Counted from the stretch's first letter, positions 392 to 35,700 are shown. The stretch: DNA of 39,887 nt from an uncultured Myxococcales bacterium (GCA_903923815.1 CAIXZC010000007.1:1-39887), one strand, 5' to 3'. The notes: a model not told the origin generated them from the letters alone. Translations and numbers: made by a program.

Positions 392-1061
<670 letters not shown>

Positions 1062-1075
<14 letters not shown>

Positions 1076-1973
1076 GCGCCTCTTCTACTTCCTTCGCCGG
1101 GGCCTCGCCAACCTGGTGGCCTCACCCCTGCTGGCCGTCATCACCGTCATGACCGTGGCCATGTCCCTGGTCCTGGTGGGCTTCATGGTCTTCGTCCTGT
1201 TGCGCGCTGACAGCGTCCTGGAGGAGGCCGGCGGCGGCTTCAAGATGACCGTCTACATGGACCCCACCCTGACCGTTCAGGAGTGCGAAGAGCTTGCCCG
1301 CGTCGTGCGCGAGCAGTTCCCCGAGGTGGACAGCGCCAGGGTCTTCTCGGCCCGGGACGACCTGGAGCGCAACCGCGCCCTGTTGCCCCCCGAGATCCTT
1401 GAAGGCCTGGAGGAGGACCTCATCCCCGCCCAGCCCTACCTGGAGGTCACCACCGACATCCGGCGCCTCAAACCCGAGCGCCTGGAGAACATGGTCGTCT
1501 GGTTCCGCTCCCTCAAACAGGTGGAGGGCGTGGACGAGATCCTGCTGGGCTCGGAGAAGCTTCGAGTGGCCTTCAGCCTCCTGGACTCCTTCCGCTACAC
1601 GGCGGTCTTCGTGGCCCTGGTGGTCACCCTCTCGGCCCTCTTCTTCATCTTCGCCACCATCCGCCTGTCGGCCCACGCCCGCCGGGAGGAGATGGACATC
1701 ATGCTGCTCATGGGCGCCTCCCGGGACTTCGTGCGCCTGCCCTTCTACATCGAGGGCGCCCTGGAGGGCGTCCTTGGCGGGGTCATCGGCTGGCTCATGG
1801 TGGCCGCCATGGAGCACCGCATGATCACCCGCCTGCGCACCGAGAACCTGCTGAACATCGACGGCACCATCATGCCGGGGCAGATCTGGGTGCTGTTCCT
1901 GCTGGGCGGCCTGCTGCTAGGCGTCCTCGGGGCCGCCATGGGGGTCGGCAAGTACCTCCGGCTCCAGTCATGA
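1062..1973 (+). CDS. ftsX: Cell-division permease FtsX
   Basis: MQLIERLFYFLRRGLANL start, FtsX-type extracellular domain and four TM segments; overlaps ftsE end. The ORF-track start at 999 is probably too early. Confidence 0.9.
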
Positions 1974-3082
1974 AGACGCTGCTGTTACTGGTGCTCATGC
2001 TCTGCTCCCAGGGCGAGCCCGCGCCCCCCCCGGTCCCCCCCCCTCACAGCCTGGGTGACGGCCAGTCCCTCCTGCTGATGGAGGTGATGGACATGCTGGC
2101 CGCGGAGGTCAAGCGCCTGGAGGAGGAGCGGCTGCGGCTGACCTCATCCCACGCCAAGGTCCAGGCCCGGCTGGCGGACATGGACTCCCACATCGAGGGG
2201 CTGGACCGCAAGGTGGCCGAGCAGCGGGACAAGGTGCGCAAGCTGATCCGCGCCGCCGTCCGCATGCGCGAGCCCTCCGAGTTGAACCTGCTGCTGTCTG
2301 CGGGCCGCTACCAGTCCTCCATGGTGTACCAGCGGGCCATCCGCAAGCTGCTGTCCCGGGTCCAGCACCGCATCGAGACCGTGGCCATCCAGAAGAAGCG
2401 CTGGGAGAACGCCAAGGCCAAGGCCGTGCGGGAAGCCCAGATCCTTCGCCAGGACGAGACCGAGGCGGCCCTGCGCCTGGCCGAGACCGAGAAGGCCCTG
2501 GAGAAGAAGAAGCGGCGCCTCAAGGAGCGCCAGGACAGCATAGCCGCGGTGTCCACGCTGTTCATGCTGGGCACGCTGGACGACGCCACCGGGCTGACGC
2601 CTCTTGCGCCCCCGGCCCCCGCCGGCGGCAGCGAGTTCGCCGAGCTGAAGAACCGCCGCCAGCTCAAGCTGCCCATCAGCCCCGGTCGCATCGCCAAGCA
2701 GTACGACCGCGCCCCCTCGGACGAACTGGGCACCGAGAAGATGGCCCGGGGGTGGATCATCACTCCCTACGTGGAAAAGGGGCGGCCCGTTCCCGACAAG
2801 GCCGCCATTCGGGCGGTTTTTGACGGGGTGGCGGTGTGGCAAGGAGAGATCCCTGGGTTTGGCATGACCCTGGTCCTCAAGCACGGCCCAATTCACCACA
2901 GTGTTTATGCAAATCTCTACAAGCTCTACATCGCCAAGGGCGCCCAGGTAAAGGCCGCCGACGAGATCGGCATGGTCAAGAGCCTGCGCAAGGGCAGCCC
3001 CCCTTACCTGTACTTCGAGGTCCGCGAGGATCGGGCCGCCGTGGACCCCAAGGGCTGGTTCCGGCTCCGCCCCATGAAGTAA
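1970..3082 (+). CDS. envC: EnvC-like murein hydrolase activator: coiled coil plus degenerate LytM (M23) domain
   Basis: Signal peptide, long coiled coil, C-terminal LytM-like fold (GMTLVLKHG...YANLYKL...PYLYFEVRE...VDPKGWF); ATGA overlap with ftsX. Confidence 0.8.
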   Translation: MKTLLLLVLMLCSQGEPAPPPVPPPHSLGDGQSLLLMEVMDMLAAEVKRLEEERLRLTSSHAKVQARLADMDSHIEGLDRKVAEQRDKVRKLIRAAVRMREPSELNLLLSAGRYQSSMVYQRAIRKLLSRVQHRIETVAIQKKRWENAKAKAVREAQILRQDETEAALRLAETEKALEKKKRRLKERQDSIAAVSTLFMLGTLDDATGLTPLAPPAPAGGSEFAELKNRRQLKLPISPGRIAKQYDRAPSDELGTEKMARGWIITPYVEKGRPVPDKAAIRAVFDGVAVWQGEIPGFGMTLVLKHGPIHHSVYANLYKLYIAKGAQVKAADEIGMVKSLRKGSPPYLYFEVREDRAAVDPKGWFRLRPMK

Positions 3083-3107: not shown

Positions 3108-3136
3108 TTGACAGACGCCCAAGGCCATAGGATTAT
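3108..3136 (+). promoter_or_regulatory. Predicted sigma70-type promoter for the pil operon
   Basis: TTGACA (3108-3113), 17-bp spacer, GATTAT (3131-3136). Confidence 0.55.
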
Positions 3137-3209
3137 TGCCCGCGAGAATGGGCAGGATTGTCGCAGCCAGGGACCACCCTTCTCTTGGCTTCGTTCCGGA
3201 GGGACTGAC

Positions 3210-4268
3210 GTGCTGGGAAACAAGAATCTGGTAGGTGTGGACATTGGCTCCCACTCCATCAAGATCTGTCTCCTGCGGGAAACGGCCAAGGGCCTGCATC
3301 TGCAGCGCTTCGACTTTGCGCCCCTGCCGCCGGAGGCCATGGTCGATGGGGCTGTGATGAACTTTGGCGCCGTGGTGGACCGCCTCAAGGACCTGGTCCA
3401 GGCCAACAAGCTGGGCGGCCACAAGGCGGCCCTGTCCGTGTCGGGGCACTCGGTGATCATCAAGAAGATCTCCCTGCCCGAGATGACCGACGAAGAGCTG
3501 GCCTCCTCCATCATGTGGGAGGCGGAGCAGTACATCCCCTTCGACATCAAGGAAGTGCACGTGGACGTACAGGTGCTGGACCCCAAGGCGGGCCAGGGCC
3601 AGATGGACGTGTTGCTGGTGGCCGCCAAGAAGGAGGTCATCAACGACCACGTCTCCATCGCCATGGAGGCGGGCCTCAACCCCGTCATCATGGACGTGGA
3701 TACCTTCGCCGTGCAGAACGTCTTCGAGCTGAACTATGGCTTCCCCCCCGCCGAAACCGTGGGCCTCATCAACATCGGCGCGTCCATGATCAACATCGAC
3801 GTGGTCAGCAACGGCATCCTCCAGTTCACCAGGGACATCTCCATGGGTGGCAACCTGCTGACCGAGGAGATCCAGCGCGAGCTTGGCGTGGGCTTCGAGG
3901 AGGCCGAACACTACAAGACGGGCGTGGGTGAGAGCGTCTCCTCCTCTGCCATCTTCCGCGAGGTCCAGCGCCTGGCCGAGCGCGTCTCCCACACCCTGGT
4001 CACGGAGATCCAGCGCTCCATCGAGTTCTTCAAGGCCACGTCCCTCTCCGGGGACTTGAGCCGCGTCTATCTGTCCGGCGGCTCCTGCCAGATTCCCGCC
4101 ATCATCAAGACCCTGGAGCAGCGCCTGGAGGTCAGCGTCGAGCTGATCAACCCCTTCAAGAACATCGTCATCGATACCAAGCGTTTTGACATCGCCATGC
4201 TGCAGCGGCTGGCCCCCTCCGCCGGGGTCTCCGTGGGTCTGGCCCTCAGAAGGAGGGGCGACAGATGA
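3210..4268 (+). CDS. pilM: Type IV pilus assembly protein PilM
   Basis: Actin-like ATPase: NLVGVDIGSHSIKICLL...; GTG start at 3210 after GGAGGG; start of the PilM-N-O-P-Q order. Confidence 0.93.
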   Translation: MLGNKNLVGVDIGSHSIKICLLRETAKGLHLQRFDFAPLPPEAMVDGAVMNFGAVVDRLKDLVQANKLGGHKAALSVSGHSVIIKKISLPEMTDEELASSIMWEAEQYIPFDIKEVHVDVQVLDPKAGQGQMDVLLVAAKKEVINDHVSIAMEAGLNPVIMDVDTFAVQNVFELNYGFPPAETVGLINIGASMINIDVVSNGILQFTRDISMGGNLLTEEIQRELGVGFEEAEHYKTGVGESVSSSAIFREVQRLAERVSHTLVTEIQRSIEFFKATSLSGDLSRVYLSGGSCQIPAIIKTLEQRLEVSVELINPFKNIVIDTKRFDIAMLQRLAPSAGVSVGLALRRRGDR

Positions 4269-4966
4269 TTCGCATAAACCTCCTCCACGGCGACAAGAAG
4301 AAGGCCAAGAAAGTAGCCGGGTCGAACAGCTCCCTTGGGGCCATGATCGTGCGGGTGCTGGTGCTGGAGATCATGGGCCTCTACTACTGGGGCCAGGTCA
4401 AGTCCTCCGCCCTGGAGGAGCAGCAGAAGATCCTCACCCAGGCCGAAAAAGAACTCAAGGAGACCGCCGAGCTCAAGAAGCAGCAGGAAGAGCTGCAGCT
4501 CAAGATCGACGAGCAGGAGACCCAGAATCAGATCTTCGAGACCCTGAAGAACGGCCGCGTGGGTGGCGCCAACCTGTTGCTGTATATGTCCTACATGCTG
4601 ACCAAACCCTCCCTGGAAAGCCGTGATGAGCGCGTGGTCCAGGAGCAGCTTGGCTGGACCACTGGCTGGGACACCGAGCGGGCCTGGTTCAACGGCATCA
4701 AGAACTCGGGCAGGGGCAGCATCGTCATCTCCGGTGAAGCCCTCACCCACAAGGACACGGATGAGGTCCTGAAGCGCCTGCGGGCCTGCATCTACCTGCA
4801 GAACCTGCGGCTGGTGGTGTCCGTCAAGAAGATCAACCGCGAGGAGTCCCCCGAGACCATCGCCTTCCGCTTTGAGGCCGTCCTCAACTACGACCCCAAT
4901 GTCGGCAAGGATCCCGAGGCCGAGGGCGACGGGGCCAGCAGCAAAGCCCCCACGGGGAGAGGTTAG
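4265..4966 (+). CDS. pilN: Type IV pilus assembly protein PilN
   Basis: MIRINLL N-terminus, TM segment, coiled coil; operon position. Confidence 0.88.
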   Translation: MIRINLLHGDKKKAKKVAGSNSSLGAMIVRVLVLEIMGLYYWGQVKSSALEEQQKILTQAEKELKETAELKKQQEELQLKIDEQETQNQIFETLKNGRVGGANLLLYMSYMLTKPSLESRDERVVQEQLGWTTGWDTERAWFNGIKNSGRGSIVISGEALTHKDTDEVLKRLRACIYLQNLRLVVSVKKINREESPETIAFRFEAVLNYDPNVGKDPEAEGDGASSKAPTGRG

Positions 4967-4968
4967 CC

Positions 4969-5616
4969 ATGGATAAGTTCAAGGCGCTCAAACCCGAACA
5001 GAAGCTCATTGTGGCGCTCCTCACGCTGGGCCTGCTGGCGGGCCTCTACTACGTCGCCGTCATCATGGACACGGACACCGAGCTGGCCACCGTCATCAAC
5101 GACATCTCCCGCAAGACCGCCGAGCGGGCCAAGTTCAAGGACTTCAAGGGTGCCTCCGAGGTCGAGGCCCTGAAGAACCGCTACGCCCTGGTCATGGCCC
5201 AGATTGAAGAGAACAAGAAGATCCTGCCCACCGAGGACCTGCTGGCCGAGTTCATCCACGGCCTGGAGAGCGACGCCGAGGACGCCGGGGTGCAGATCAT
5301 CTCCTACGAACCGGAGAACAAGGTCACCAAGGATTACTACGAAGAGATTCCCGTCCAGATGGAGATCCGGGGCACCTTCGTGGAGGTCGTGCGCTTCTTG
5401 AAGCTCATGGCCCTCCCGGGCAAGCGCCTTACGAATGTGGCCTCCATTGAGCTGTCCGTGGAGGAGAACAAGAAGAACCGTGAGGAGAGGCAGCGGCTGT
5501 TCCTGTTGGGTGCCGCGTCTCCCGAGCAGGAGACCATCCTGATCGCCAAATTTGTCACCACGGCCTTCACCTACACGGGCCTGGTCTCGGATCCGAAGAA
5601 AAAGAGGATGGAGTGA
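4969..5616 (+). CDS. pilO: Type IV pilus assembly protein PilO
   Basis: Short N-terminal region, TM segment, coiled coil, PilO-like C-terminal fold; operon position. Confidence 0.87.
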   Translation: MDKFKALKPEQKLIVALLTLGLLAGLYYVAVIMDTDTELATVINDISRKTAERAKFKDFKGASEVEALKNRYALVMAQIEENKKILPTEDLLAEFIHGLESDAEDAGVQIISYEPENKVTKDYYEEIPVQMEIRGTFVEVVRFLKLMALPGKRLTNVASIELSVEENKKNREERQRLFLLGAASPEQETILIAKFVTTAFTYTGLVSDPKKKRME

Positions 5617-5632: not shown

Positions 5633-6355
5633 GTGACGCCAAAACTCAGACGGGCCCTCCTGGTGCTTCTTCCCCTCGCACTCCTGGCGGGTTGCGGAGG
5701 CGAGGAGGCCAAGCCCATGACCATGGACCAGGCCCAGGGCACCCCTGCTGCCGCTGCCCCCGCCACCAAAAAGGGCGAGAACAAGCGCAAGGGTGATGGG
5801 GACTTCAAGGCCAACCCAGCCTGGGATAGGATCGCTCCACATTTCTTCGTGTTCGTTGGCACGCTTGACCGCGAACTCCACACGCGCAGCATGGAATGGA
5901 AGGCCCGGGATGCCTTCAAGAACAACTACGAGATCTTCTTCCCCCCCGAGCCCCCCAAGCCCACGGCCGCGGCGGAGAACAAGACCGACAAGCCGGAGGA
6001 GAAGAAGGGCCTGGTGATGGGCTTCTTCGACGCCATGAAGAAGGCCGGCGAGAAGCCCATGGAGCTTGAGTTGGAGGCCCGCAAGGCCAGCGAGGATCCC
6101 CTGGTGAAGAGGCCCCTGAAGGACTACCGCTTCCAGATCATCATGTCTGGGGTGGCCAACCCCGAGGCCCTGGTGGTGGACTCGGCAGGAATTACGCACA
6201 TGCTGCATGTGAACGACCGGATCGGTTCCGAAGGTGGCTTCGTCCAGGACATCCTCAAGAATGAGGTCCTGGTGAAGTTGCCTGAGGCGGAGGCGCCCGA
6301 GGTCATCTCGTTGGCACCCCCGGAAATGCCCGCTCAGCTGCGGTCTGCGCAATGA
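5633..6355 (+). CDS. pilP: Type IV pilus assembly lipoprotein PilP
   Basis: Lipobox LALLAGC; HQ-rod-like C-terminus (GITHMLHVNDRIGSEGGFVQDILKNEVLVKL); GTG start; operon position. Confidence 0.86.
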   Translation: MTPKLRRALLVLLPLALLAGCGGEEAKPMTMDQAQGTPAAAAPATKKGENKRKGDGDFKANPAWDRIAPHFFVFVGTLDRELHTRSMEWKARDAFKNNYEIFFPPEPPKPTAAAENKTDKPEEKKGLVMGFFDAMKKAGEKPMELELEARKASEDPLVKRPLKDYRFQIIMSGVANPEALVVDSAGITHMLHVNDRIGSEGGFVQDILKNEVLVKLPEAEAPEVISLAPPEMPAQLRSAQ

Positions 6356-6371
6356 GCGCTGGAGGAGAACC

Positions 6372-9300
6372 ATGAAAACGGTTCAATTTGCGATTCTGGC
6401 CATGTTGTTGCTTCCCCTGGCCCTGCAGGCGGCGCCGGACAACCGGCTCAAGGGCATCAGCGTGGAGGAGAACACCGAGGGCACCCTCATCACCATCGAG
6501 GGTTCGGGCACTCCCACCTTCAGCGCCTTCCGGCTGCAGGATCCCCCCAGGCTCCTGGTGGACATCGCCGGGGCTGAGGTGACGGGCCGGCAGGGCACCG
6601 TGGAGGTGTACAACGGGGTGGTGGCCCAGGTGGGCACCATCGCCTTCGGCAGCGGCGACAAGAAGACCGTTCGCGTCATCGTGACCTTCGAGAAGGATTC
6701 CCCCTACGACGTGCGCGCCGTGGGTCAACGGTTGCTGATTCTGGTGGATGGTGAGGGGCGCCGGGGAGCCGGTGGCGATACCCAGGTGGCCCAGCGCGAG
6801 AAGGAACACCTGGACAAGGCCATCTCCCGGGAGAAGACCCTGCTGGCCCAGCTTCAGACCGCCCGCGAAAAGGAAGAGACCCTGCGGGGCGAGGCCCAGA
6901 AGGCCCTCACCGAAGAGAAGAAGCTGCTGGACAAGGTGGCCGAAGAGAAGAAGCGCCTGGAAGAACTGCAGATGCAGGCGCGCCTGTCCCTGGCCAAGGA
7001 GCAGGAGCTGACCGAGCTGGCGAAGAACGCCACGGCCATGGCCGAGGAGCAGCGTGTCGCGGCGGCCCGGGCGGCGGAGTTGGAGCAGCAGAAGGTTGTG
7101 GCCCTCCAGGCCAAGCGCGTGAAGATTGAGGCCCTGAAGGCCGCCCTGGACAAGGAGCGGCTGGCGGCGGAAGAGGCCCGCGTGGCCCAGGAGAAGGCGG
7201 AAGAGTTGGCCCGCGCCCGGCGCCAGGCCATGGAGCAGGAGGCCAGCAAGGCCGAGGAGCTGCGCCAGGCCTCGGAGGAGGCCCTGCGGGAGCAGCAGAA
7301 GAAGCTGGAGATCGCCCGGCGCGAGGCGCTGCTGGCGTCCAATGAACAGGACGCGGCGGCCAAGTTGCGGGCCGAAGAGGAGCGTCAGCTCAAGCTGCTG
7401 GCCGAGGCGCGCAAGCAGCAGGAGGCCTTGCTGCAGCAGGCCACGGCGGCCCGGGAGGCTCAGGAGGCCACGGCTGCCAAGCTGCAGGACGAGAACCGCA
7501 AGATCGCCGAGCTCAACGAGCGCGTGAAGAGTGACTCCCAGCAGGTCGAGGCCAAAAAGCTTCGGGCTGAGGCGGAGGCCCGCAAGGCCACCCTGGAGAA
7601 GGAACAGCGCGAGCGGGAGGCCGAGGTGGCCCGGCTTGAGCGTCAGAAGGAAGAGGCGGCGGCCCGCGCCATCGAACAGGAAGCGGCGGCGGAGACGGCC
7701 CGGCTGGATGCCACCCGTACGGCGTCTGAGCGGGAGCAGGAACTGCAGGCCCAGGCCCTGGAGAAGCGGCGCAACGAAGAGGCCCTTGCGGCGGCCCAGC
7801 AAAGGCAGCTTGCGGCCACCGAGGCCAAGCTGGCGGCGGCCCGGGAGGCCCTGTCCAGCGAAGAGGCTCGGCGCAAGGTGCTGGCCGAGGCGGTGGAGCT
7901 TGACGCCAAGCGCGCTGAGGCGGCGGAGTCTGTGGCCAGGCTGCGGGCCGAGCACGACCACGCCATGGCCGAGAAAGAGCGCATCGAGCGCGAGGTCACC
8001 GAGACCAGGATCCAGTTGGACACCCTCAAGAAGGAGAAGTCCGAGCTGGAGGCCATGGTGGCCCAGCGCAAGTCCGAGGAGGCCAACCTCCAGACCATCC
8101 AGACGGACCGGAACAAGCTGGAGGAGGAGCGCTCCAAGCTGGAAGACGAGCGGGCCATGCTGGCCTTCCAGATCGACGAGAGCCGCATGAAGCTGGGCGA
8201 GTTTGACAAGGCCCGGGAAGCCAAGCGTCAGGAACTGAGCCGCATCGACGAGCGGATGAACCTGTCCTCCAAGGCCATCGACGAGGTCAATGCCCAGTTG
8301 GTGCTGGAGCAGGAGAACCTGCGGCGCATGGTGGATCAGCGCAAGGAAGAGGAGAAGCGGCTGGAGACCCTGCGGGAGAACATCCGGCAGCTTCAGGCCA
8401 ACAAGACCGCCTCGGACAACGAGACCGTGGGCAAGCTGCAGGGCGAACTGGCCACCAAGGAGCAGGCCCTGGCCGAGCGGGACAAACGTCTGGCCGAGCT
8501 GGAGACCCGCCTGGGCCGCCTGTCCGGGGAGCTGGACAGCACCCGCAAGCAGGCTGGCACCGAGTCCGACGAGACCGCCAAGCTGCGGTCCCGATTGGAA
8601 GAGCGCACCCGCGACTACGAGCGGCTGGACCGGGAGTACCGGGATGCCACGCGCCGTCTGGCCGAGCTGAAGGCCGGCCGGGACGAGGGCATGCGCAAGG
8701 CCGGGGAGCTGGAGACCAGACTGGAGGACAGCGTCCGGCGCATGGACGAGATCAACAAGGAGTACAACGGCCTGCTGGCAGAGCGCGAGCGCTGGGCCGA
8801 CATGAACAAGGCCGAGAAGCAGGAAGTCTCCAGGCTGAAGAAGGACCTGGCCAAGGGCCAGACCGAGTACGCCAAGCTGCTCAAGAGCAGGGAGGCCATG
8901 GAGAAGAAGCTGCTGGTCCTGTCCCGGGATCTGGCCCGCGCCGAAGAGGAGAAGGCCGGCCTGGAGCGTGGGCTGCAGGAGGCACAGCGGCAGTTGGAGG
9001 GCCAGCGGGGCGCCCTGACCGAGGCCCGGAAGCGCAGCGACGAACTGGAGCAGACCAGACAGGCCCGCGGCGAGGATCTGTTGAAGATCCAGGCGGACCT
9101 GGATGCCAGCCGGCAGGCCCTGGCGGGCTACGAGGCTGAGGTGGCCAGGCTGCGGCAGTCCGAGCAGCTTGGAGAAGCAGACAAGGCTCGCCTTGCGGAG
9201 ACCGAGCAGCAGCTGGAGGCCGAGAAGGGCCGCGGGTCCCAGTTGGACACCGAGAAGGACAAGCTGCAGCAGCTCATCGCGGCCCTGGGGGCCCAGCGTG

Positions 9301-12300
9301 AGGCGGAGAAGAACGAAGTGGAGCGGTTGGCGTTCCGGGTCAAGGAGCTGGAGGTCACCGGCAGCCAGGCCGACAAGGCCCTGCAGGACAGCGCCAAGAA
9401 GTTGGGCTCCCTGAAGGAGCGGCTGGACAAGGAACAGGCCCTTCAGGTGGAGCTGGTGGCCAAGATGGAGGCCAGCAAGGCCGAGGCCGCCGAGTGGAAG
9501 AACCGCTACGAGCAGCTGGTCGTGGCCAGCCAGAAGAATGATCAGGAAAAGAAGAACACCGAGGCTGAGGTCACGCGGCTGCGCGCGCACCTGGAGCAGC
9601 AGCGCAACGACCTGGACGCCCTGCGGCAGGTGACGGACCGCAACCGGACCTCCGGGGCGGAGACCACCGCCAGGTTCGAAGAGCTCCAGTCCCAGGTCGC
9701 CAAGGAGCGGGACCGGGCGGAGGCCGAGCGCAAGAATTCCGAGGCCCTCCAGGCCGAGCTGGCCAGCACCCGGGAGACCCAGGCCAAGGCCCAGATCGCC
9801 TGGAAGAACGAGCAGGCCCGCACCCTGGCCGAGTTGGAGACCCTGCGGGCCGCCGGCATGGCCCAGGAGTCCAAGATCAGCGAGCTGAAGGCCCAGTTGG
9901 CCAAGTCAGAAGAGAACCGCAACGGCGCCGAGGCCGAGGCTGAGGCGTTGGCCAAGGCCAAGACCGAGTACGAGCAGAGCCTGAAGGCCCGGGAGCAGGA
10001 AGTGGCCCGCCTGAAAGCGGAGCGCGACCTCGAGGCCCAGGCCGCCAGGGAGGCCCAGGACAACGCCCAGAAGGCCGACCAGGAGGAGCAGAACAACCTC
10101 CAGGCGCGGGAACGGGAGCTGGCCCGGTTGAAGGCCGAGCGCGACGCTGAAGCCAAGAGCGCCAAGGAGGCCCGGGAGAACGGCAAGCTGAGCCGCGAGC
10201 AGGAGACCAAGTACCAGGCCGAGCTGAAGCGCCGGGACCGGGAGCTCTCCCAAATGGAGGCCCAGATCGCCGACCTCAAGGCCAGCCAGGCGGCCCAGGA
10301 CAAGAAGAAGCAGGCCGAACTGGCCTCCCTCAAGAAGGAATATGACCGGACCCTTCAGGACCGGGAGAAGGAGATCGCTCGGCTGAAGGCCGACCGTGAC
10401 GCCGAGAGCGCCAAGGCAGCCAAGGCCCGGGACGGTGGCAAGTTGAACAAAGCCCAGGAGGCCAAGTTCCAACAGGAGCTCAAGCGCCGGGACGAGGAAG
10501 TGGCCAAGGCCGAGGCCGAGGCGGCCGCCCTCAAGGCCAGCTTTGAGGAAGCCAAGGCCCAGGCCCAGGCCGCCAAGGAGGAAGAGCTGGAGGCCGTCAA
10601 GACCGCCAAGGACGGCGAACTGCGGGCCCGAGAGGCCGAGATCGAGGTCCTCAAGGCCAAGCTGCTGGCGCAGAAGGTGGCGGAGCCCAAGTCCGCCGTG
10701 AAGGCCATAGACTTTGACGGCAGCAAGGGCCGCGCGGTGCTGAAGATCTCCGTGGACGGGCAGCCCAACTATCAGGTGGAGGCCCGCTCCGACAAGGACT
10801 ACCTGATGATCTTCGATGGCACCAGCATCCCCGCAGCCCTGCAGCGCACCCTGGACACCCAGGAGTTCGCCAGCCCCGTGGCCTGGGTCAGCAGCTACGA
10901 GGACCCGGGCCGCAAGGGTCGGACTGTGGTCTCCGTGCACCTCAAGGAGCCCGCCTCCAACAGCGTCATCAGCACCAATGGTTCGGTGCAGTGGTCCTTC
11001 AAGGGTGGGTCCGAGGCCGAGGGCACGGCATCCGCCGCGGCCCCCAGCGCCGGCGCCCAGACCGCCGTGGTGGGGCAGGCCAAGGGTGGCCCCCAGACCA
11101 ACGCCGCCGTGGTGACCGCTGGTCTGGCCAACCCCCAGAACCCCTTCGCCGTGGTGAACCCCAACCCCGGAAAGAAGAAGAAGAAGTACAGTGGCAAGCG
11201 CATCAACCTGTCCATCAAGGACGCGGACATCCAGCACGTGCTGGCCTTCCTGTCCCGGGTGGGTGGCGTAAACATCGTGACCAGCGAGGGCGTCCGCGGG
11301 AACGTGTCCTTCTACCTGGAGGACGTGCCCTGGGACCTGGCGCTGGACATGATCCTCAAGAGCTCCGGCATGGACTACGTGGCTGAGGAGGGCATCTATC
11401 GCGTGGCCCCCCAGGCAGAGATCCAGAAGGAGTACGAAGTCGCCCTGGACAAGCAGAAGAAGATCACCGAGCTCAAGCAGCTCCAGGTCAAGCTGATCCC
11501 CGTGAACTACGCCGACGCCGACGAACTGGCCAAGCAGGTCAAGAGCATCCTCAGCGACAAGGGCCAGATCAGCGTGGACAAGCGCACCAACACCCTTATC
11601 GTCAAGGACATCGAGGAGCACGTGGCGGCCCTGGATGATCTGGTGCGTCGCCTGGACGCCCAGACCCCCCAGGTCCTCATCGAGGCCCGCATCGTGGAGG
11701 CCTCCAACGACTTCACCCGTGAGGTGGGTGTCCAGTGGGGCGGCAGCCTCCAGGCCTCCCCCGAGTACGCCAACCAGACGGGCCTCATCTTCCCGTCGTC
11801 GGTGGGTCTGGCCGGTGGTTCTTCGGACCAGTCCTCCACCACCAACGGCCTGTTCCTCAACGGCAACCCCAACTACGCCGTGAACCTGCCCGCCGCCGCC
11901 GGCCAGGGCACCGGTGGTTCTATCGGCCTGAGCCTGGGCAGCGTGGGCGGGGCCGCCAACCTGTACCTGCGCCTCTCCGCCGCCGAGGCCGAGGGCGTCG
12001 TGAAGATCATCTCGGCGCCGCGCATCTCCACCGTGGACAACACCGCGGCCACCATCCAGCAGGGCGTGTCCTTCCCCGTCAGCGTGGTCTCCGCCCAGGG
12101 CGTCAACACTCAGTTCTTCGACGCCAACCTGAAGCTGGACGTGGTGCCCCACGTGACCCAGGACGGCAACATCCAGCTCAAGATCGACATCACCAAGAAC
12201 GAGCCGGACTTCTCCCAGGTGGGCGCCAACGGCAACCCCACCATCCGCAAAAAGGAAGCCCACACCGAGTTGCTGCTCAAGGATGGCGATACCACCGTCA

Positions 12301-12488
12301 TCGGCGGCATCTTCACCCGCAGCTCGTCCAAGAACTTCAAGAAGGTGCCGTTCTTTGCCGACATCCCCCTGCTGGGCTGGTTCTTCCGGTCCAACAAGGA
12401 GGCCGATCAGCGCTCCGAGATGCTGATCTTCATCACCCCGCGCATTGTGAATCGTCAGGCCGCGAGGGTGGACACCGTGGTGGACTGA
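6372..12488 (+). CDS. pilQ: Type IV pilus secretin PilQ with giant coiled-coil insertion (2038 aa)
   Basis: Signal peptide, N-terminal AMIN-like domain, approx. 1300-aa Glu/Lys/Arg/Ala-rich heptad region, second AMIN-like domain, STN (KRINLSIKDADIQHVLAFLSRVGGVNIV), N1, and secretin core (VPFFADIPLLGWFFRS, EMLIFITPRIV). Confidence 0.93.
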   Translation: MKTVQFAILAMLLLPLALQAAPDNRLKGISVEENTEGTLITIEGSGTPTFSAFRLQDPPRLLVDIAGAEVTGRQGTVEVYNGVVAQVGTIAFGSGDKKTVRVIVTFEKDSPYDVRAVGQRLLILVDGEGRRGAGGDTQVAQREKEHLDKAISREKTLLAQLQTAREKEETLRGEAQKALTEEKKLLDKVAEEKKRLEELQMQARLSLAKEQELTELAKNATAMAEEQRVAAARAAELEQQKVVALQAKRVKIEALKAALDKERLAAEEARVAQEKAEELARARRQAMEQEASKAEELRQASEEALREQQKKLEIARREALLASNEQDAAAKLRAEEERQLKLLAEARKQQEALLQQATAAREAQEATAAKLQDENRKIAELNERVKSDSQQVEAKKLRAEAEARKATLEKEQREREAEVARLERQKEEAAARAIEQEAAAETARLDATRTASEREQELQAQALEKRRNEEALAAAQQRQLAATEAKLAAAREALSSEEARRKVLAEAVELDAKRAEAAESVARLRAEHDHAMAEKERIEREVTETRIQLDTLKKEKSELEAMVAQRKSEEANLQTIQTDRNKLEEERSKLEDERAMLAFQIDESRMKLGEFDKAREAKRQELSRIDERMNLSSKAIDEVNAQLVLEQENLRRMVDQRKEEEKRLETLRENIRQLQANKTASDNETVGKLQGELATKEQALAERDKRLAELETRLGRLSGELDSTRKQAGTESDETAKLRSRLEERTRDYERLDREYRDATRRLAELKAGRDEGMRKAGELETRLEDSVRRMDEINKEYNGLLAERERWADMNKAEKQEVSRLKKDLAKGQTEYAKLLKSREAMEKKLLVLSRDLARAEEEKAGLERGLQEAQRQLEGQRGALTEARKRSDELEQTRQARGEDLLKIQADLDASRQALAGYEAEVARLRQSEQLGEADKARLAETEQQLEAEKGRGSQLDTEKDKLQQLIAALGAQREAEKNEVERLAFRVKELEVTGSQADKALQDSAKKLGSLKERLDKEQALQVELVAKMEASKAEAAEWKNRYEQLVVASQKNDQEKKNTEAEVTRLRAHLEQQRNDLDALRQVTDRNRTSGAETTARFEELQSQVAKERDRAEAERKNSEALQAELASTRETQAKAQIAWKNEQARTLAELETLRAAGMAQESKISELKAQLAKSEENRNGAEAEAEALAKAKTEYEQSLKAREQEVARLKAERDLEAQAAREAQDNAQKADQEEQNNLQARERELARLKAERDAEAKSAKEARENGKLSREQETKYQAELKRRDRELSQMEAQIADLKASQAAQDKKKQAELASLKKEYDRTLQDREKEIARLKADRDAESAKAAKARDGGKLNKAQEAKFQQELKRRDEEVAKAEAEAAALKASFEEAKAQAQAAKEEELEAVKTAKDGELRAREAEIEVLKAKLLAQKVAEPKSAVKAIDFDGSKGRAVLKISVDGQPNYQVEARSDKDYLMIFDGTSIPAALQRTLDTQEFASPVAWVSSYEDPGRKGRTVVSVHLKEPASNSVISTNGSVQWSFKGGSEAEGTASAAAPSAGAQTAVVGQAKGGPQTNAAVVTAGLANPQNPFAVVNPNPGKKKKKYSGKRINLSIKDADIQHVLAFLSRVGGVNIVTSEGVRGNVSFYLEDVPWDLALDMILKSSGMDYVAEEGIYRVAPQAEIQKEYEVALDKQKKITELKQLQVKLIPVNYADADELAKQVKSILSDKGQISVDKRTNTLIVKDIEEHVAALDDLVRRLDAQTPQVLIEARIVEASNDFTREVGVQWGGSLQASPEYANQTGLIFPSSVGLAGGSSDQSSTTNGLFLNGNPNYAVNLPAAAGQGTGGSIGLSLGSVGGAANLYLRLSAAEAEGVVKIISAPRISTVDNTAATIQQGVSFPVSVVSAQGVNTQFFDANLKLDVVPHVTQDGNIQLKIDITKNEPDFSQVGANGNPTIRKKEAHTELLLKDGDTTVIGGIFTRSSSKNFKKVPFFADIPLLGWFFRSNKEADQRSEMLIFITPRIVNRQAARVDTVVD
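9990..10530 (+). repeat. Intragenic repeated coiled-coil module in pilQ (three copies of RExEhARLKAxRDxEA)
   Basis: REQEVARLKAERDLEA (from 9990), RERELARLKAERDAEA (from 10107), REKEIARLKADRDAES (from 10362); the last two share downstream GKLxxxQExKxQxELKRRDxE. Confidence 0.8.
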
Positions 12489-12514: not shown

Positions 12515-13345
12515 ATGAAAAAGATGATGCTGATGCTGGCGCTGCTTCCGGTGCTGTACTCCTGCGCCCCGGAGGGAGTGAGCCAGTCCTTCGTGGTCAC
12601 CGGCTGCACGCTGGTGGACTACCGAAACCAGTGCAAGCTGTCCACCACCGGCAACGTGACGGAGCTGCGCTCGGTGGGCATCCTGGACCTGCTGTTCACC
12701 AATAAGTACTGGGTGGCCCCGGTCATCATGAATGACACCAACCCGCCCACCGATGGCTCCACCATTGGCGGCAAGGGCATCTCCGTCCTGGGGGCGCACC
12801 TGTCCTACCAGATCGGTCAGCTTGGCGGGCAATACGACACCAAGAAGGTCATCAAGCCCTACAAGGTCTTCATGCCCGCGTCGGGCTTCATCAAGCCCGG
12901 CGAAATCACCACCATCATGTTGGAAGGCATCCCCGCCGAGATCGGCGCCCTTCTTGACCGCGACATGGCCTTTGACGAGCGCTACTCCGGCGGCTACATC
13001 GCCGTGACCATCCAGCTTGAGGGCGTCATGACGGACGGTACCAGCGTCATGTCCAACAAGTTCGTGTACCCGATCCAGCTTTGCCGTGGATGCCTGCTGT
13101 ACTACCCGATCCCGCTGTCCCAGTGCTGCAACGGCACCATCGGCGAGGTCTACATCTGCTATCCCGGCCAGGACGACGGTATCCCCTGCGACCTGGGCTG
13201 CTCGGTCATGGACATGTACGACCGCTACGCGGAGAAGAAGGCCATGCTGCTGGGCACGATAGACTCCCTGGCGGACCCCATCCCCAAGATGCACCTGCTG
13301 GAAGGCCAGTCCGACGAATTCGGTATCATCCAGGGCCAGCCCTGA
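12515..13345 (+). CDS. Cys-rich lipoprotein immediately downstream of pilQ, unknown function
   Basis: ATG at 12515 after GGGAGG; lipobox LPVLYSC; about 276 aa; 26-nt gap from pilQ. Confidence 0.8.
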   Translation: MKKMMLMLALLPVLYSCAPEGVSQSFVVTGCTLVDYRNQCKLSTTGNVTELRSVGILDLLFTNKYWVAPVIMNDTNPPTDGSTIGGKGISVLGAHLSYQIGQLGGQYDTKKVIKPYKVFMPASGFIKPGEITTIMLEGIPAEIGALLDRDMAFDERYSGGYIAVTIQLEGVMTDGTSVMSNKFVYPIQLCRGCLLYYPIPLSQCCNGTIGEVYICYPGQDDGIPCDLGCSVMDMYDRYAEKKAMLLGTIDSLADPIPKMHLLEGQSDEFGIIQGQP

Positions 13346-16953: not shown

Positions 16954-17220
16954 GACGATACACTCCTTTGTTTGCAAACACAGTTTTAATTGACTCCAAC
17001 GACCAACTGCCATTCATACAATGATTCATTTTGTTTACTCCATTTACTCATTTACGGAGGCGCCCGAACGAGGAGCCCCATTGAGCCCGCAGGATAGGAA
17101 CGCCCGGTGCGTCAATGCAAGGGCTTTCGAAGGCCCCCCGGGGAAAAACCGCGATCCGCATGCCGGACTTGACCGGTGCCCCGGGGCGGGTTAGGCTTCG
17201 AACCCTGGAGTAGCCGCACC

Positions 17221-18159
17221 ATGAAGAAGATGACCGACGATACCACCAGGGTAACAGCCATGCACAACCTGTCGGATGGCGCATCCGACGCGGTTGATTG
17301 CCTGGTGCAGATCTATGGCAAGGCCCTGGGCAAGAAGTACGAGATGTTCGAGCCCCTGGTGACCCTGGGCCGGGATCCCCAGAACTCCATCGTGTTGGAT
17401 TCGGACTCCGTCTCCCGGCGCCACGCGGTGGTGGAGATCACCGACAAGGGCCGGGTGCTTCGGGACCTGGACTCCACCAACGGCACCTACCTCAATGACA
17501 TCCAGATCAAAAGCGCCGTCCTGTCCCAGAATGACCTGGTCAAGATCGGCGATACCATCTTCAAGTTCCTCAGCGGCAACAACATTGAGTCCCAGTACCA
17601 CGAAGAGATCTACCGCATGACCATCTGGGATGGCCTCACCCAGATCGCCAACAAGCGGCACCTCATGGATCACCTGGACAAGGAGTTCGCGCGCTGCCAG
17701 CGCTACAACCGCAACCTGTCCCTGGTGATGTTCGACATCGACTTCTTCAAGAACGTCAATGACACCTACGGGCACCTCACGGGGGACTACGTCCTGAAGG
17801 AGCTGTCCGATCTGCTGCGCAATCGCATCCGCCGCGAGGAACTGTTCGCTCGCTACGGCGGCGAGGAGTTCGCCATCGTCCTGCCGGAGTCCGACACCAA
17901 GGTTGCGTCCCGCTTTGCGGACATCATCCGGGCCAAGGTGGAGGACCACGTCTTTGAGTTCGAGGGCCAGCAGATCAAGGTGACCATCAGCCTGGGCGTG
18001 GCCTCCATGAACCTGGCCATGAAGACCGTCTCCGAGTTCATCGGGCAGGTGGACGCCGCCCTCTACGAGGCCAAGCGCCTTGGCAGGAATCGGGTGGTGG
18101 TGGCAGGAAACGTGGACGAACCCTCAGCGCCCATCAATCTGGACGAGCTTCACCCCTAG
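17221..18159 (+). CDS. FHA-domain diguanylate cyclase (FHA-GGDEF)
   Basis: FHA: VTLGRDPQNSIVLDSDSVSRRHAVVEI...DLDSTNGTYLN; GGDEF: MFDIDFFKNVNDTYGH and RYGGEEFAIVLP. Confidence 0.93.
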   Translation: MKKMTDDTTRVTAMHNLSDGASDAVDCLVQIYGKALGKKYEMFEPLVTLGRDPQNSIVLDSDSVSRRHAVVEITDKGRVLRDLDSTNGTYLNDIQIKSAVLSQNDLVKIGDTIFKFLSGNNIESQYHEEIYRMTIWDGLTQIANKRHLMDHLDKEFARCQRYNRNLSLVMFDIDFFKNVNDTYGHLTGDYVLKELSDLLRNRIRREELFARYGGEEFAIVLPESDTKVASRFADIIRAKVEDHVFEFEGQQIKVTISLGVASMNLAMKTVSEFIGQVDAALYEAKRLGRNRVVVAGNVDEPSAPINLDELHP

Positions 18160-27095: not shown

Positions 27096-27146
27096 TCCGG
27101 TTGGGGCTTTCATTGGCGACAACGGTTTTCTTCAGGAGGTAACTTG

Positions 27147-30100
27147 ATGAGGCGGGCAGGCTTTTTGACTTACGTTGCTCCGTTCCTCGCCGCCATGCTG
27201 TGGCTGACTTCTTGCGCCACAGAGGTGGGAGACATCGACCGGACCGATCCCAACAAGATCAAGAAGGCCGATCTGAGAGGCGTGTGGTACTACGTCTCCA
27301 CGGTCATCGATTCCCCCAACCCTTCGCCCTTCACCTTCAATGGTGAGATGAACTTCGGCGGCGGCTTGAAGGTGATCTTCGATGTCCAGGAGGACTACCT
27401 GGTGGCCTACCCCGTCACCGAGACCACCGCCGTGGGCGCGGAAGAGGGCTGGCACATCAGCACCATCCGCAACTACTGGGACGAGGGCAAGTCCGACCAG
27501 TTCATGGAGATGTACGTCGGGCAGCCCGTGGCGGCCTTCAAGATCGAAAAGCATTTCGATGTGATCCGCCAGTACAACCCCCAGACCGGCGAGCAGAGCA
27601 ACGTCATCGTCGAGGACACCGCCGACAAGCTCTGGTTTGAGCGCAGCTACCTGCGCGTCAACTGGACCGAGAACAGGGTCAAGGACCTGATGTTCCTGGC
27701 GGCCATCGAGGGTTCTCCCACGGACTACTACGTCCAGGAGTACGAAGAGGACAACCCCGATGCCTTCGAGATGACCGCGGACTCGATCAACTTCGTGAAC
27801 CGCATCTTCGCCCAGCCCGTGGGGCCCGAAGCCTGCAACATCTACGGCATCGGCGCGGCGGACTGCGCTGGCGCGGTCATCAAGATCCGCCACAGCTTCC
27901 GCAAGGCCGACCCCAACAACGACTACGTGGCGCTGTACTACCCGGAGACGGATCAGCAGGACAAGTTCGGCTTCTTCCTCACCGAGCACTACGGCTACGA
28001 CTACGACCACGGCGTGCTGCTGTCCAACAAGGTCTACCTGATCAACCGTTGGAACCTCTGGAAGAACAGCCGCGACGTGCAGGCCATCACCGACGCTGCC
28101 ACCGGCGAGAATGTCCCCTGCAAGGTCGACGCCGACTGCAAGGACCTGGCCCCCGAGGGCATCCACAACACCCACTGCTGGGTTGACAACGGCTGGTTCT
28201 CGGACGGCCACTGCGTGACCTGGGACTCCCTGGCCTACAAGGACCGGGAAGTGCAGCCCGTGGTCTACCATGTGTCGGCCCAGTGGCCCAAGGAGTTGGA
28301 GCGGGCCATCTACACGACCAACAACCAGTACTCCGAGGCCCTCAAGGACACCGCCGCGTGGCTGAAGCTTTACTCCGAGAAGGGCATCGCCGACCTGCGC
28401 TACTGCGACACCAACGCCGACTGCGCCGCCCACGCCCTCATCGACACCGAGATCGCCCACACCCACGGCCGCGTCTGCGCTGACGACGCTGCCTGCCAGG
28501 TGGGCGTGTCCGCTGACCAGAAGGCCCTGTACTCCTGCCCCGCCGGCTACTGCGTGAAGGCCGTGGCCTGCTCCGCCACCGCCCCCTGCGCCCTGGGCCA
28601 GACCTGCACCGCTGGCGTCTGCAAGGATGCCCAGGCTGCCTTGGTCGTGAACGAGGTGAAGGACACCGGCGCCTATACCTTCTATATGAACGTCGGCACG
28701 GACGGTGCCTTGAAGACCCAGGTCTCCGAGGACGACTCCTACCCCAAGATTCCTTCTGGCAAGGCCCTCATCCGCGTGGTCAACCTGAACACCGCCGTGG
28801 GCCCCGTGACCCTCAGCGACGAGAACGGCCCCCTGTGTGACGTGGACGTGCCCTTTGCCGCCACCGACGACGACTACCTGGTCCCCGGCAACTGCAACCT
28901 GGGCACCGCCACCACCATTCGCAACATCCAGGTCAAGGACCAGAGCGGCGCCCTGGTGGGCACCGTCAACGGCGTGCGCATCGCCAAGGACGCCATCATC
29001 ACCGTGGTGGTCTCCGGCAACGCCACCCTCAAGGGCGTCATGGCCTTCAGCATCACCGTCAAGTCCCTGGGCACCAAGGGCATCCGCTTCGTGCATGCCT
29101 TCCCCGGCAAGAGCGGCGTGGACTTCGCCCTCAACGGCGGCCTGCGCTCGTCTGACCTGCGCTTTGGCATGGCCAGCCCCTACACCGGCATGCGCAAGGG
29201 CAACAACCGCATCACCGTCATCAACCACGGCGAAGCGGGCGACGTGACCTGCTACAACAACAAGGGTGTGGGCACCTGCACCGGTTGGAGAACCGAACTG
29301 GACGACAAGGACCTCGCCCGGGTCAAGGAGATCAAGGCCACCCTCCCCGAGATGTTCGTGGTCTGCGACAACGTGTTCACCGGCGACGCCTGCGACCCCA
29401 ACGAGGCCGCCGCTGGCGCCCCTACGGGCAACGAGCAGGTGGACCGCGAGGCCCGCAATGACTGCCGTTACTGGTGGTTCGACAAGGCCGTCTCCAGCTG
29501 GCGCAACCCCTGCAAGGAAGTCCCCGGCGCCTACGACATCAAGAAGCACGGCGACATTCGCTACTCGTTCATCTACTGGGTGGGCGAGAACCAGGCCGCC
29601 TCCCCCCTGGGCTACGGCCCCTCCGCGGCGGACCCCAAGACGGGTCAGATCTACCACGCCTGCGCCAACATCTACGGCGCCGACATGCTGACCTACGCCC
29701 AGTACTCCCGGGATCTGCTCAAGCTCTCCACGGGCGAGCTGACCACCGAGAACATCGCCACCGCGGATTACATCAAGGAATACATCGAGAACAACCCCCC
29801 CGATAACGGTTACGGCAGCCTCTACGCGCCGCTGCTGGACAAGGCCCTGATTGACAAGAAGGCTGGGGAGAATCTGGCCAAGCGCCCCAACATGAAGCGC
29901 TTCTGGATGACCCCCGCCGAGCAGACCCGCGTCCTCCAGCAGATCAATGATCCGGTGGTGAAGCGCATGGCCATGGACCCCAAGTTCGCTTGGAAGAAGG
30001 CCGTGGACTCCCTGGTGGACGGGTTCAGCCCCGCCGCCGCCATCGCCCGCATGGGCCTCATCAAGGGCACCTGGCTGGAGAAGCTGCTGATCAACGAAGA

Positions 30101-32690: not shown

Positions 32691-32702
32691 GAGGTTGGGA
32701 CC

Positions 32703-35700
32703 ATGAGGACCTTTGGAAAGCTTGTGATGAGAATCCTCCCGACCGTTGCCCTGCTTGGCCTGGTGGCCTCCTGTGCTCAGGATGTTGGGGAAATCGACCG
32801 GACCCAGAACAACATCGTCCAGAAGCAGGACCTGGAGGGCGAGTGGTACTTCCGCCAGACCACGGTGGAGACGCCCTACTCGTCTGCCTACTCCTTTGAG
32901 GGCGACACCTCCAAGATGGAGCGCGGCGTCTTCGAGATGCAGGAGAACAACCTGTTCTTCTACCGGACCTACGAGTTCCAGTACAACACCGAGACCATCG
33001 GTATGAAGGGTGACACGGACACCCCCTACCTGGGGTGGCTGCCCGGCGAGACCGCCAAGTACACCCCCAACCCGTACCAGTCTCGGGACCGCAAGTTCGC
33101 CGTGGGTCTGGAGGCCAAGGATGGCGAGGGCAACACCCTGGCCTGCGGCACCCAGAAGACCCCCCACGACTTCTGCCAGTCTGAACTGCGGGACCAGTAC
33201 CTCTACTGTGGCCATGCCTCCACCGCGGCCGCTGCCGACCGCACCAAGGACAACGCAGTCTGCGTGCACCCCACGCGCTTCGTGTACCGGGGCGCCCCCC
33301 TGGCCATCTTCCCCATCCAGGGCCACATCGACGTCATCTGGGAGTACAACCCCTCCACCGGTGAGAAGACCAACGTCCTCACCGAGAACTCCTCTGACCG
33401 CTTCTGGTACGAGCGGGACTACATGCGGGTGAACTGGGCCGAGACCCAGATCAAGAACTTCTCCATGACGCTCGCCTCTGTGCTGGACGAAGTTGCCATC
33501 ACCGTCTACGAGGGCGACGCCGCCCCCGAGGGCGAGAACTACCGGATGTTCCGGGATGATTCCGACAGCCCCAACTACTTCGACTACGTGGCCAAGTACA
33601 TCTTCACTGCGCCCACCATGGCCCTGGAGGGCTGGGGCGACGTGCCCATCTGCCTGTTCTACCCCTGGTACGTGGGCGGCATCTACGAGTGCACCTCCGA
33701 GCAGATCAAGATCCGTTCGGCCTTCCTGAAGGTTGACCAGAACGACACCTACCGCCCCTGGGACTACGACGACCACCTGCTGGGCAAGTTCGGCTACTTC
33801 CGCACCGAGCGCGCCAACTTCGACGACCGTTACGACGTCACCTACGGCGGCGTGTCCAACTACATCGACCGCTACGACCTGTGGAAGACCCACGTCTACA
33901 AGGCCGACGGCAGCGAGGACTTCGCCGCCATGGAGCCCGCCCCCATCGTCTACTACCTGTCCAAGGACTTCCCCCGGGAGTACGTCCCCGAGGCCATCGC
34001 CATCGGCAAGGCTTGGTCCAAGCCCTTCGAGGACACCGTCAACTTCCTCAAGCCCGGCGCGGCCGGCGCTGACAAGCCCATGTTCGTGGTTTGCGAGAAC
34101 AACAACACCGAGGCTCAGGTTGCTGCCGACGCGGGCCAGCCCGTGGCCGAGACCAACGCCGCCCTGTGTCGCGACATGGACTACGCCAAGCTGGCCGGCG
34201 ACCTTCGCTACAGCTTCATCGTGGCCATTGAGCGCCCCATGAGCGCCGGCCTGCTGGGCTACGGCCCGCCGTCCCCGGACCCCCTCACGGGCAAGATCAT
34301 CTCCGGCAACGCCCACATCTACATCGCCCCCATGACCCGTCAGGCCAACAGCGCCGCGGACCTCATCGAGTACGTCGTGGGTGCCAAGGACTACTCCTCC
34401 GTGGCCGAGGGCCTGGACAAGGCCGAGACCTTCTACGCCGACATGATCGGCGTGAACGCCAACCCCCCGCCCAAGGACGTGGCGGCCGCCCGCCAGCTCA
34501 TCGCCGGCTCCATCAAGCCCCAGACCCGGGCCCAGTTGCTGGCCAATGGCATGAAACCCCAGGACAGCGACTGGGTGTCCATGCGCATGGGCCTCATCTC
34601 CAGCAATCCCCAGCTTGAGGCCTCCCTCATCCTGCCCTGGTTCCGCTCCCTCTTCCGTGACCCCACGGTGGGCACCACCGAGACCCTCACCGGCGAGCGC
34701 GCCGAGGAGATGTCCCTCAAGAACTGGGCCAACTACAAGGGCTTCGAGCGCCAGATGGACCGCATCCGCTTCTACGCCAAGAACTTCATGACCCGCGAGG
34801 AGTTCATGGATGGCGCCATCATGGACGTGGTCAAGCAGTGGGAAGGCCGCTACAACGAGGGCATCTGCTCTGCCGTGGAGAACGCCATCGCTGACGGCAC
34901 CGAGCTGTCCTTCGACATGGCCGAGTTCGACATGGTCAAGGACGCCTGCACGGCCGCCGAAGAGGGCGCCGTCCGCCAGCGCGAGGACTACCCCATTCTC
35001 AGCAACGTCAAGCCCTACAACGCCGGCGTGGCCATGGCGGGCGACACCTGCCTCAAGGTCGAGCAGGGCGACGTCAACGGCTACTACTGGGTGAACACCT
35101 GCACCGTGGAGAAGCTGGGCCGTCAACTCTCCGCCCGCATCCTCGAGGCCGAGCAGTGGTCCTCCTACGCCTACTGGCCCCCCGCGGCCTGGTACTACAG
35201 CGTCAAGGAACCCAAGATGGCCGCCACGCAGAAGTTCATGAAGGATCAGTTTGAGGCCCTCCGCAAGGAGGTCATTGCGGACATCATGTCCCGCGAGTTC
35301 GACTCCCTGACCATTCACGAACTGGGTCACACCCTCGGTCTGCGCCACAACTTCGAGGCCACCACCGACGCCATGAACTTCCCCAAGGAATACTGGGCCC
35401 TGAAGCTGCCCGCCGAGGCCGGTGTGCCCGTGGACATCTTCGGTGCCGAGAAGACCTACCAGCGGGAAGGCGGCATGCGGGGCCTGCAGTACAGCTCCAT
35501 CATGGACTACGGCGCCAAGTTCAACTCCCTGTGGCATGGCCTGGGGCTCTATGACCACGCCGCCATCAAGTTCGGCTACGGCGGCATCATGGAGGTCTTC
35601 ACCGAGGCCCCCGACCTCAGCACCTACCAGGACTACCTGGCGGAGCCCGAGAACACCGGCACCCCCTGGCAGGTCCCAGCCGTCCGCCAGGATGAAAGCA

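Follow-up and report, generated by a model that had tools for sequence, protein, structure and literature searches.

The window analysed here is a stretch of DNA of 39,887 nucleotides from an uncultured Myxococcales bacterium, which contains a pilMNOP-pilQ cluster in which PilM and PilO were recognised by Pfam and PilN and PilP by orthology or position (Table 1). The protein encoded by the last gene of the series matches TIGR02515 (NCBIfam) with 421.9 bits against a cut-off of 284.35. Its closest solved chain is PilQ of Myxococcus xanthus (3jc8, E 2e-154), and a Foldseek search with the C-terminal part of its AF2 model returned PilQ of Vibrio (6w6m, E 8e-29) and of Pseudomonas (6ve2, E 3e-22). 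On the strength of this score, the closest chain and the fold matches, the ORF is a true type IVa pilus secretin PilQ. A gene for an uncharacterised lipoprotein, conserved across the phylum, lies at a distance from directly 3' to about 1.7 kb 3' of pilQ. Long antisense ORFs in the window, e.g. those at 6303-9590 (-) and 27132-37157 (-), were attributed to the high GC content of sequence that codes on the opposite strand. Elsewhere in the genome, a homologue of TsaP was found (G000:C80, 9e-52 to M. xanthus TsaP), as was one further secretin with a frame of 915 aa (C445), which is taken to be the secretin of a type II secretion system.

Table 1. Features of the pil locus and of the PilQ chain, with positions counted from the first nucleotide of the window
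Feature	Coordinates	Strand	Basis
pilM	3108..4268	+	Pfam PilM_2, E 1.7e-72
pilN	4265..4966	+	Position; no Pfam match
pilO, 215 aa, normal length	4969..5616	+	Pfam PilO, E 3e-15
pilP, lipoprotein, 240 aa, normal length	5633..6355	+	Position and orthology
pilQ, 2038 aa secretin with giant coiled-coil linker	6372..12488	+	No internal stop
Predicted signal peptide, MKTVQFAILAMLLLPLALQA	6372..6431	+	By eye from the translation; not a lipobox
AMIN1, residues 27-123, distal tip domain	6450..6740	+	Pfam PF11741; own profile
Linker, residues 124-1442 (1319 aa), coiled coil	6741..10697	+	Own AMIN profile; periodicity
Zone 1, residues 138-515, Ala/charge-rich, very likely helical, weak heptads	6783..7916	+	Sequence pattern
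Zone 2, residues 516-1185, strong canonical heptads	7917..9926	+	Autocorrelation at 7/14/21/28
Zone 3, residues 1186-1430, weaker heptads, 85-residue internal duplication	9927..10661	+	Periodicity, repeat analysis
AMIN2, residues 1443-1539, proximal, immediately C-terminal to the coil	10698..10988	+	Own profile; AF2
Flexible stretch of about 50-60 aa from AMIN2 to N0	10989..11174	+	pLDDT about 31-47
N0, N1 and secretin domain, residues 1608-2027 (TIGR02515 span)	11193..12452	+	TIGR02515, Foldseek, 3jc8
Uncharacterised lipoprotein	12515..13345	+	Conserved in the phylum

A Pfam scan placed AMIN twice in the protein, followed by GspD-like N0/STN, Secretin_N and Secretin; the AMIN family (PF11741) scored 57 bits against a cut-off of 20.5 over the two stretches, and the limits of AMIN1 and AMIN2 were set with a profile built in this analysis. 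After a likely signal peptide that ends, as judged by eye, near residue 20, the order along the chain is AMIN1, the 1319-residue coiled coil, AMIN2, N0, N1 and secretin. An earlier, sequence-only reading of this DNA had described an uninterrupted ORF of 2038 residues with two AMIN domains ahead of the secretin domains, and Pfam, TIGR02515 and the new profile bear this out; the order of AMIN, STN and Secretin that it had proposed to check by profile search was likewise recovered, and its limits for the coil (6785-10680) fall inside the linker as now mapped. In the AF2 models, AMIN1 is an all-beta domain with pLDDT mostly between 70 and 87, and AMIN2 is a confident beta-sandwich (pLDDT >90) that a long helix runs straight into.

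The linker is made up of 42% D/E/K/R and 18% A, with 1 Pro, 0 Cys and 36 Gly. Its hydrophobic period peaks at 3.50 residues with z 19-21, relative to shuffles that preserve local composition, and the secretin region of the chain gives no 3.5 peak in this test (z 0.7). The heptads are unevenly distributed. Zone 1 has no proline and carries i/i+3 and i/i+4 salt bridges; from this pattern it is very likely a helix, though not surely a coiled coil. One or a few heptad registers are held over long stretches in zone 2, which contains 26 glycines. The AF2 model of residues 21-1200 consists of AMIN1 and otherwise of helix only, at a confidence (pLDDT of the coil about 60) too low to tell a hairpin from an extended form or to inform on oligomer state, with short helix breaks located in low-confidence stretches, and heptad analysis along the linker showed no clear central hinge. 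The claim of about 1300 residues of uniform heptad sequence therefore holds in part: the linker of 1319 aa has the coiled-coil period, but only about 670 of its residues are strongly heptad. With 0.1485 nm for each residue, the full linker would extend over about 196 nm, and its strongly heptad part over about 99 nm; this arithmetic agrees with the earlier view that the coil is much too long for a normal periplasm.

The same order of AMIN, linker and AMIN was observed in all 29 orthologues of the class for which the positions of both AMIN domains were established, the window included, with linkers of 376-2035 residues (median 1345); the longest open frame among the PilQ orthologues of the class measures 2830 aa. 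Secretins with more than 1000 residues between the AMIN domains, for which the sequence-only reading had suggested a search, are thus present in the class. Among 38 PilQs from other classes of the phylum, which were chosen partly for long frames and so do not give a census, the linker has 242-959 residues in 26 and 17-71 in 12. Linker lengths across the phylum sample are accordingly bimodal, at most 71 or at least 242 residues. A heptad z of at least 5 was found for 45 of the 55 long linkers, and for 28 of 29 within the window's class; the ten below this value include very Ala-rich helices and one linker of non-helical composition (L074). A search of named genomes yielded, besides two near MAG contigs, only a 662-aa secretin that is not a PilQ. 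PilQ of Bradymonas sediminis FA350 (L089, G058), encoded in a single-contig genome, has a linker of 283 residues with a heptad z of 22.6. B. sediminis is a cultured, piliated predator and belongs to a class other than that of the window; since it is a member of the phylum compared here, that phylum is taken to be Myxococcota. In the secretin tree, the short-linker form falls mainly in one clade of families (f18, f22, f45, f52 and f54) and in scattered rows besides; this fits an ancestral coil that was lost in the short-form lineages, a quick tree being no proof. The long coil is thus real but no unique case, since it is the rule within the class and common in the phylum. As judged from the orthologues compared, the window PilQ exemplifies a phylum-wide variant that is present in the entire class and, with milder linkers, in much of the phylum; to that extent the sequence-only reading is partly supported.

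Ten close pairs, independent of one another, were compared. The coil had a dN/dS of 0.09-0.29 in nine of them and of 0.48 in the tenth, while the range for the secretin part was 0.05-0.23. The low values in the coil indicate that it is translated and selected. Gaps of at least 5 residues in the coil were collected from independent close pairs, and 16 of 27 were multiples of 7 (p 8e-8). Longer changes in the linkers trace to internal duplication, with units of 25, 94, 117 and 199 residues detected; L063 carries the 199-residue one (56% identity), L049 has repeats of 94 residues and L047 has repeats of 25. Comparison of the sequences indicates that the coil is under purifying selection, that its indels favour multiples of seven and that it grows by internal duplication. 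A random low-complexity stretch is ruled out by the periodicity, indel and dN/dS tests. The length of the linker differs by 218 residues inside one genus, and between orthologues the identity of the coil drops faster than that of the secretin, as is expected for a structural rod. Between families, AMIN1 is conserved at 40% and AMIN2 at 30%, which suggests that the distal end has a job.

In parallel in-register coils, position g of one chain lies opposite position e of the partner's next heptad, and in a homo-oligomer this g-e' pairing was scored from the single sequence as i to i+5. Control positions gave a mean charge product of about +0.07; for g-e' the mean was -0.29 within the class and -0.37 for the other classes, and the attraction was mostly absent at equal spacing elsewhere in the heptad. 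When registers were assigned from hydrophobicity alone, g-e' was attractive in 36 of 38 sequences and 13 of 14 families. The window's own linker gave -0.06, against +0.09 at the control. A canonical SMC was sought as antiparallel control and gave no matches, and its place was taken by RecN and by an SMC-like protein of divergent sequence; RecN gave +0.18, and the antiparallel SMC-like protein gave -0.11, a weaker effect in the same direction as for the PilQ linkers. Over the set as a whole, though not for the window's sequence by itself, the charge pattern thus argues, with moderate and not decisive force, that neighbouring PilQ chains pair in parallel.

While the architecture is well supported, its function is a matter of interpretation. 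The N-terminal parts of secretins such as PilQ face the periplasm, and PilO and PilP connect the inner membrane to PilQ. Across the loci compared, the lengths of PilO and PilP show no increase with the length of the PilQ linker, and the coil would accordingly be expected to run along the envelope or fold, not to cross it. The reading tentatively preferred, although it falls somewhat short of being probable, is a long-range anchor to the peptidoglycan, in which parallel coiled-coil arms carry the outer AMIN1 along the envelope. In an assembled ring of 12-15 chains, adjacent linkers would pair or bundle as parallel in-register coiled coils, and AMIN2 would fix the base of each arm to the peptidoglycan beside the ring. 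The arms might then extend along the envelope between the membranes and the wall, by up to about 100-200 nm, and set AMIN1 on distant peptidoglycan. Such a radial anchor could share the load of pilus retraction across a large patch of the wall, and AMIN binding could help to hold the pilus machine at its site. It is assumed here that AMIN1 of the window PilQ binds peptidoglycan, by analogy with the binding reported for AMIN of M. xanthus PilQ and E. coli AmiC (PMC10653833). A scaffold linked to cell-wall sites, as the sequence-only reading had proposed, still offers the best account of a coil too long for the periplasm, in so far as a role may be deduced. The long coil would supplement the usual anchor, since TsaP is present, and the idea that it substitutes for an absent TsaP is ruled out for the same reason. 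The presence of TsaP also weakens the anchor reading, an extra anchor not being obviously needed, as does the weakly heptad character of zone 1. It is unlikely, if conceivable, that AMIN-tipped radial parallel arms of up to about 200-300 nm form, around every basal body, a peptidoglycan-bound web that may couple adjacent machines, with a length tunable through heptad-preserving duplication.

The normal length of PilO and PilP, from which a normal periplasm would be expected, is also what would be seen if the coils turned back in cis or between neighbours to make a compact helical cage or collar with AMIN1 near AMIN2. The short helix breaks in the AF2 model and the glycines of zone 2 could serve such folding, but the breaks lie in low-confidence stretches, a clear central hinge is missing and the g-e' charges favour in-register parallel pairing, with the reservation that the SMC-like control is partly similar; a folded-back arrangement is therefore considered rather unlikely. 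The reach of the arm might, alternatively, serve mainly to let PilQ monomers find septal or polar peptidoglycan before assembly, with load being secondary. The AMIN domains of M. xanthus are indeed required for recruiting PilQ to the septal and polar wall (PMC10653833). In that organism, however, a single AMIN domain without a coil is enough (PMC10653833), which would make a coil of 300-2000 residues unnecessary, and a role chiefly in localisation appears distinctly unlikely.

Permissive drift, in which any soluble helix serves and length wanders by internal duplication without a length-dependent function, could account for the range of 376 to 2035 residues in the class, for the spread within one genus, for the duplications and for the faster fall of coil identity. 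It is nevertheless improbable, because no class member with both AMIN domains placed has lost the coil, and because of the bimodal lengths in the phylum, the purifying selection and the heptad-preserving indels. A spacer across an unusually thick periplasm has a precedent in SlpA of Deinococcus, a 28 nm coiled coil from the outer membrane to the wall in a periplasm of 121 nm (PMC9388160), yet here PilO and PilP would have to bridge the same gap and are not lengthened, and linker length varies several-fold among close relatives, so that this explanation is very improbable. The chance that an assembly or annotation error joined separate genes, which the sequence-only reading had named as a ground for withdrawing its claim, is practically negligible: the genome is a fragmented MAG with an estimated contamination of 7.5%, but the same single-ORF architecture is present in 28 other class assemblies, and also in single-contig genomes such as that of B. 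sediminis, by which a fusion of genes is ruled out.

A survey of PilQ architecture in ten species reported the number of AMIN domains and no coiled coil (PMC10653833), and a description of a coiled coil in PilQ was not found in the literature searched, which comprised full text and left most subscription papers outside its scope. Within that incomplete coverage, the earlier statement that no PilQ of this architecture is described agrees with the search, and a PilQ with a giant coil between its AMIN domains is apparently undescribed. How the wall resists the pull of type IV pilus retraction is an open mechanical question, and a built-in tether that is class-wide, variable in length and also present in cultured Bradymonas makes it testable through the linker length of one protein.

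Among known systems, the coiled-coil proteins SMC and Rad50 show a weak similarity to the window PilQ (SMC_prok_B, E 7e-13) that reflects coil composition only; identity with them is ruled out by a score of 47 bits against a cut-off of 567 and by the lack of an ABC ATPase head. PilQ of M. xanthus (901 aa; 3jc8; PMC10653833) shares the phylum, the secretin, N0/N1 and the AMIN parts with the window PilQ, but it has three AMIN domains (PMC10653833) and no long coil, only 316 residues of its chain being N-terminal to the aligned part. As M. xanthus, the standard model of the phylum, carries the short-linker form, its basal-body tomograms may be unrepresentative of the phylum. Pseudomonas aeruginosa PilQ with TsaP (6ve2) is also a T4aP secretin with two AMIN domains, and a TsaP homologue is likewise present here; at 731 aa, however, that PilQ is too short for a long coiled coil between them. 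PilQ of B. sediminis FA350 has the same series of AMIN, coiled coil, AMIN and secretin, with a linker of 283 as against 1319 residues. In the SlpA/OmpM connectors of Deinococcus and its relatives, an outer-membrane protein is likewise tied to the wall by a long periplasmic coiled coil (PMC9388160). No match to an SLH or OmpM domain was obtained in the Pfam scan of the window PilQ, and these connectors differ from it as homotrimeric beta-barrels with an SLH domain and a 28 nm coil (PMC9388160), the likeness being one of arrangement and not of homology.

The gene that follows pilQ (see table) encodes a lipoprotein with no family match in Pfam or NCBIfam. Its homologues (E as low as 1e-76) were found with long- and short-linker PilQ alike; throughout the phylum, the gene adjoins pilQ or lies at most about 1.7 kb downstream of it. 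This lipoprotein may be a partner of PilQ or a pilotin. In family f6, no pilMNOP genes were seen adjoining pilQ at the loci whose upstream stretch was covered (L039-L044, L047, L050, L051, L053 and L057), yet at these same loci the lipoprotein gene is still found beside pilQ.

On the other side of the pil genes, the EnvC-like M23 protein has a helical N-terminal portion; among the fetched stretches of relatives, no homologues of FtsE, FtsX or this protein were found beside pilQ. The FHA-GGDEF protein is a putative diguanylate cyclase. The two giant proteins are encoded by neighbouring genes.

Features of the window other than pilMNOPQ
Feature	Position	Strand	Remark
FtsE, FtsX, EnvC-like M23 protein	392-3082	+	shortly 5' of pilM
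Lipoprotein	12515-13345	+	immediately 3' of pilQ
FHA-GGDEF protein	17176-18159	+	downstream of pilus genes
Giant protein, 1848 aa	27144-32690	+	short DUF4953 Met-zincin match; also DUF4397
Giant protein, 1495 aa	32703-37190	+	short DUF4953 Met-zincin match

One PilQ orthologue of the same family (L112; G003:C37) carries a single in-frame TAA shortly before the N0-secretin part, reflecting either a broken gene or an assembly error.

Canonical SMC was not found in 36 class genomes (TIGR02168, E 1e-60, among 14 candidates scored per genome), in a search where positive controls did give matches; some families have an SMC-like ATPase (L124-L133), about 940 aa long, whose hinge is divergent. In family f5, which has the longest PilQ coils, PilN frames (L056, L058, L061, L063, L064, L067, L068 and L070-L072) measure about 340-390 aa, as against about 210-270 aa in most other families.
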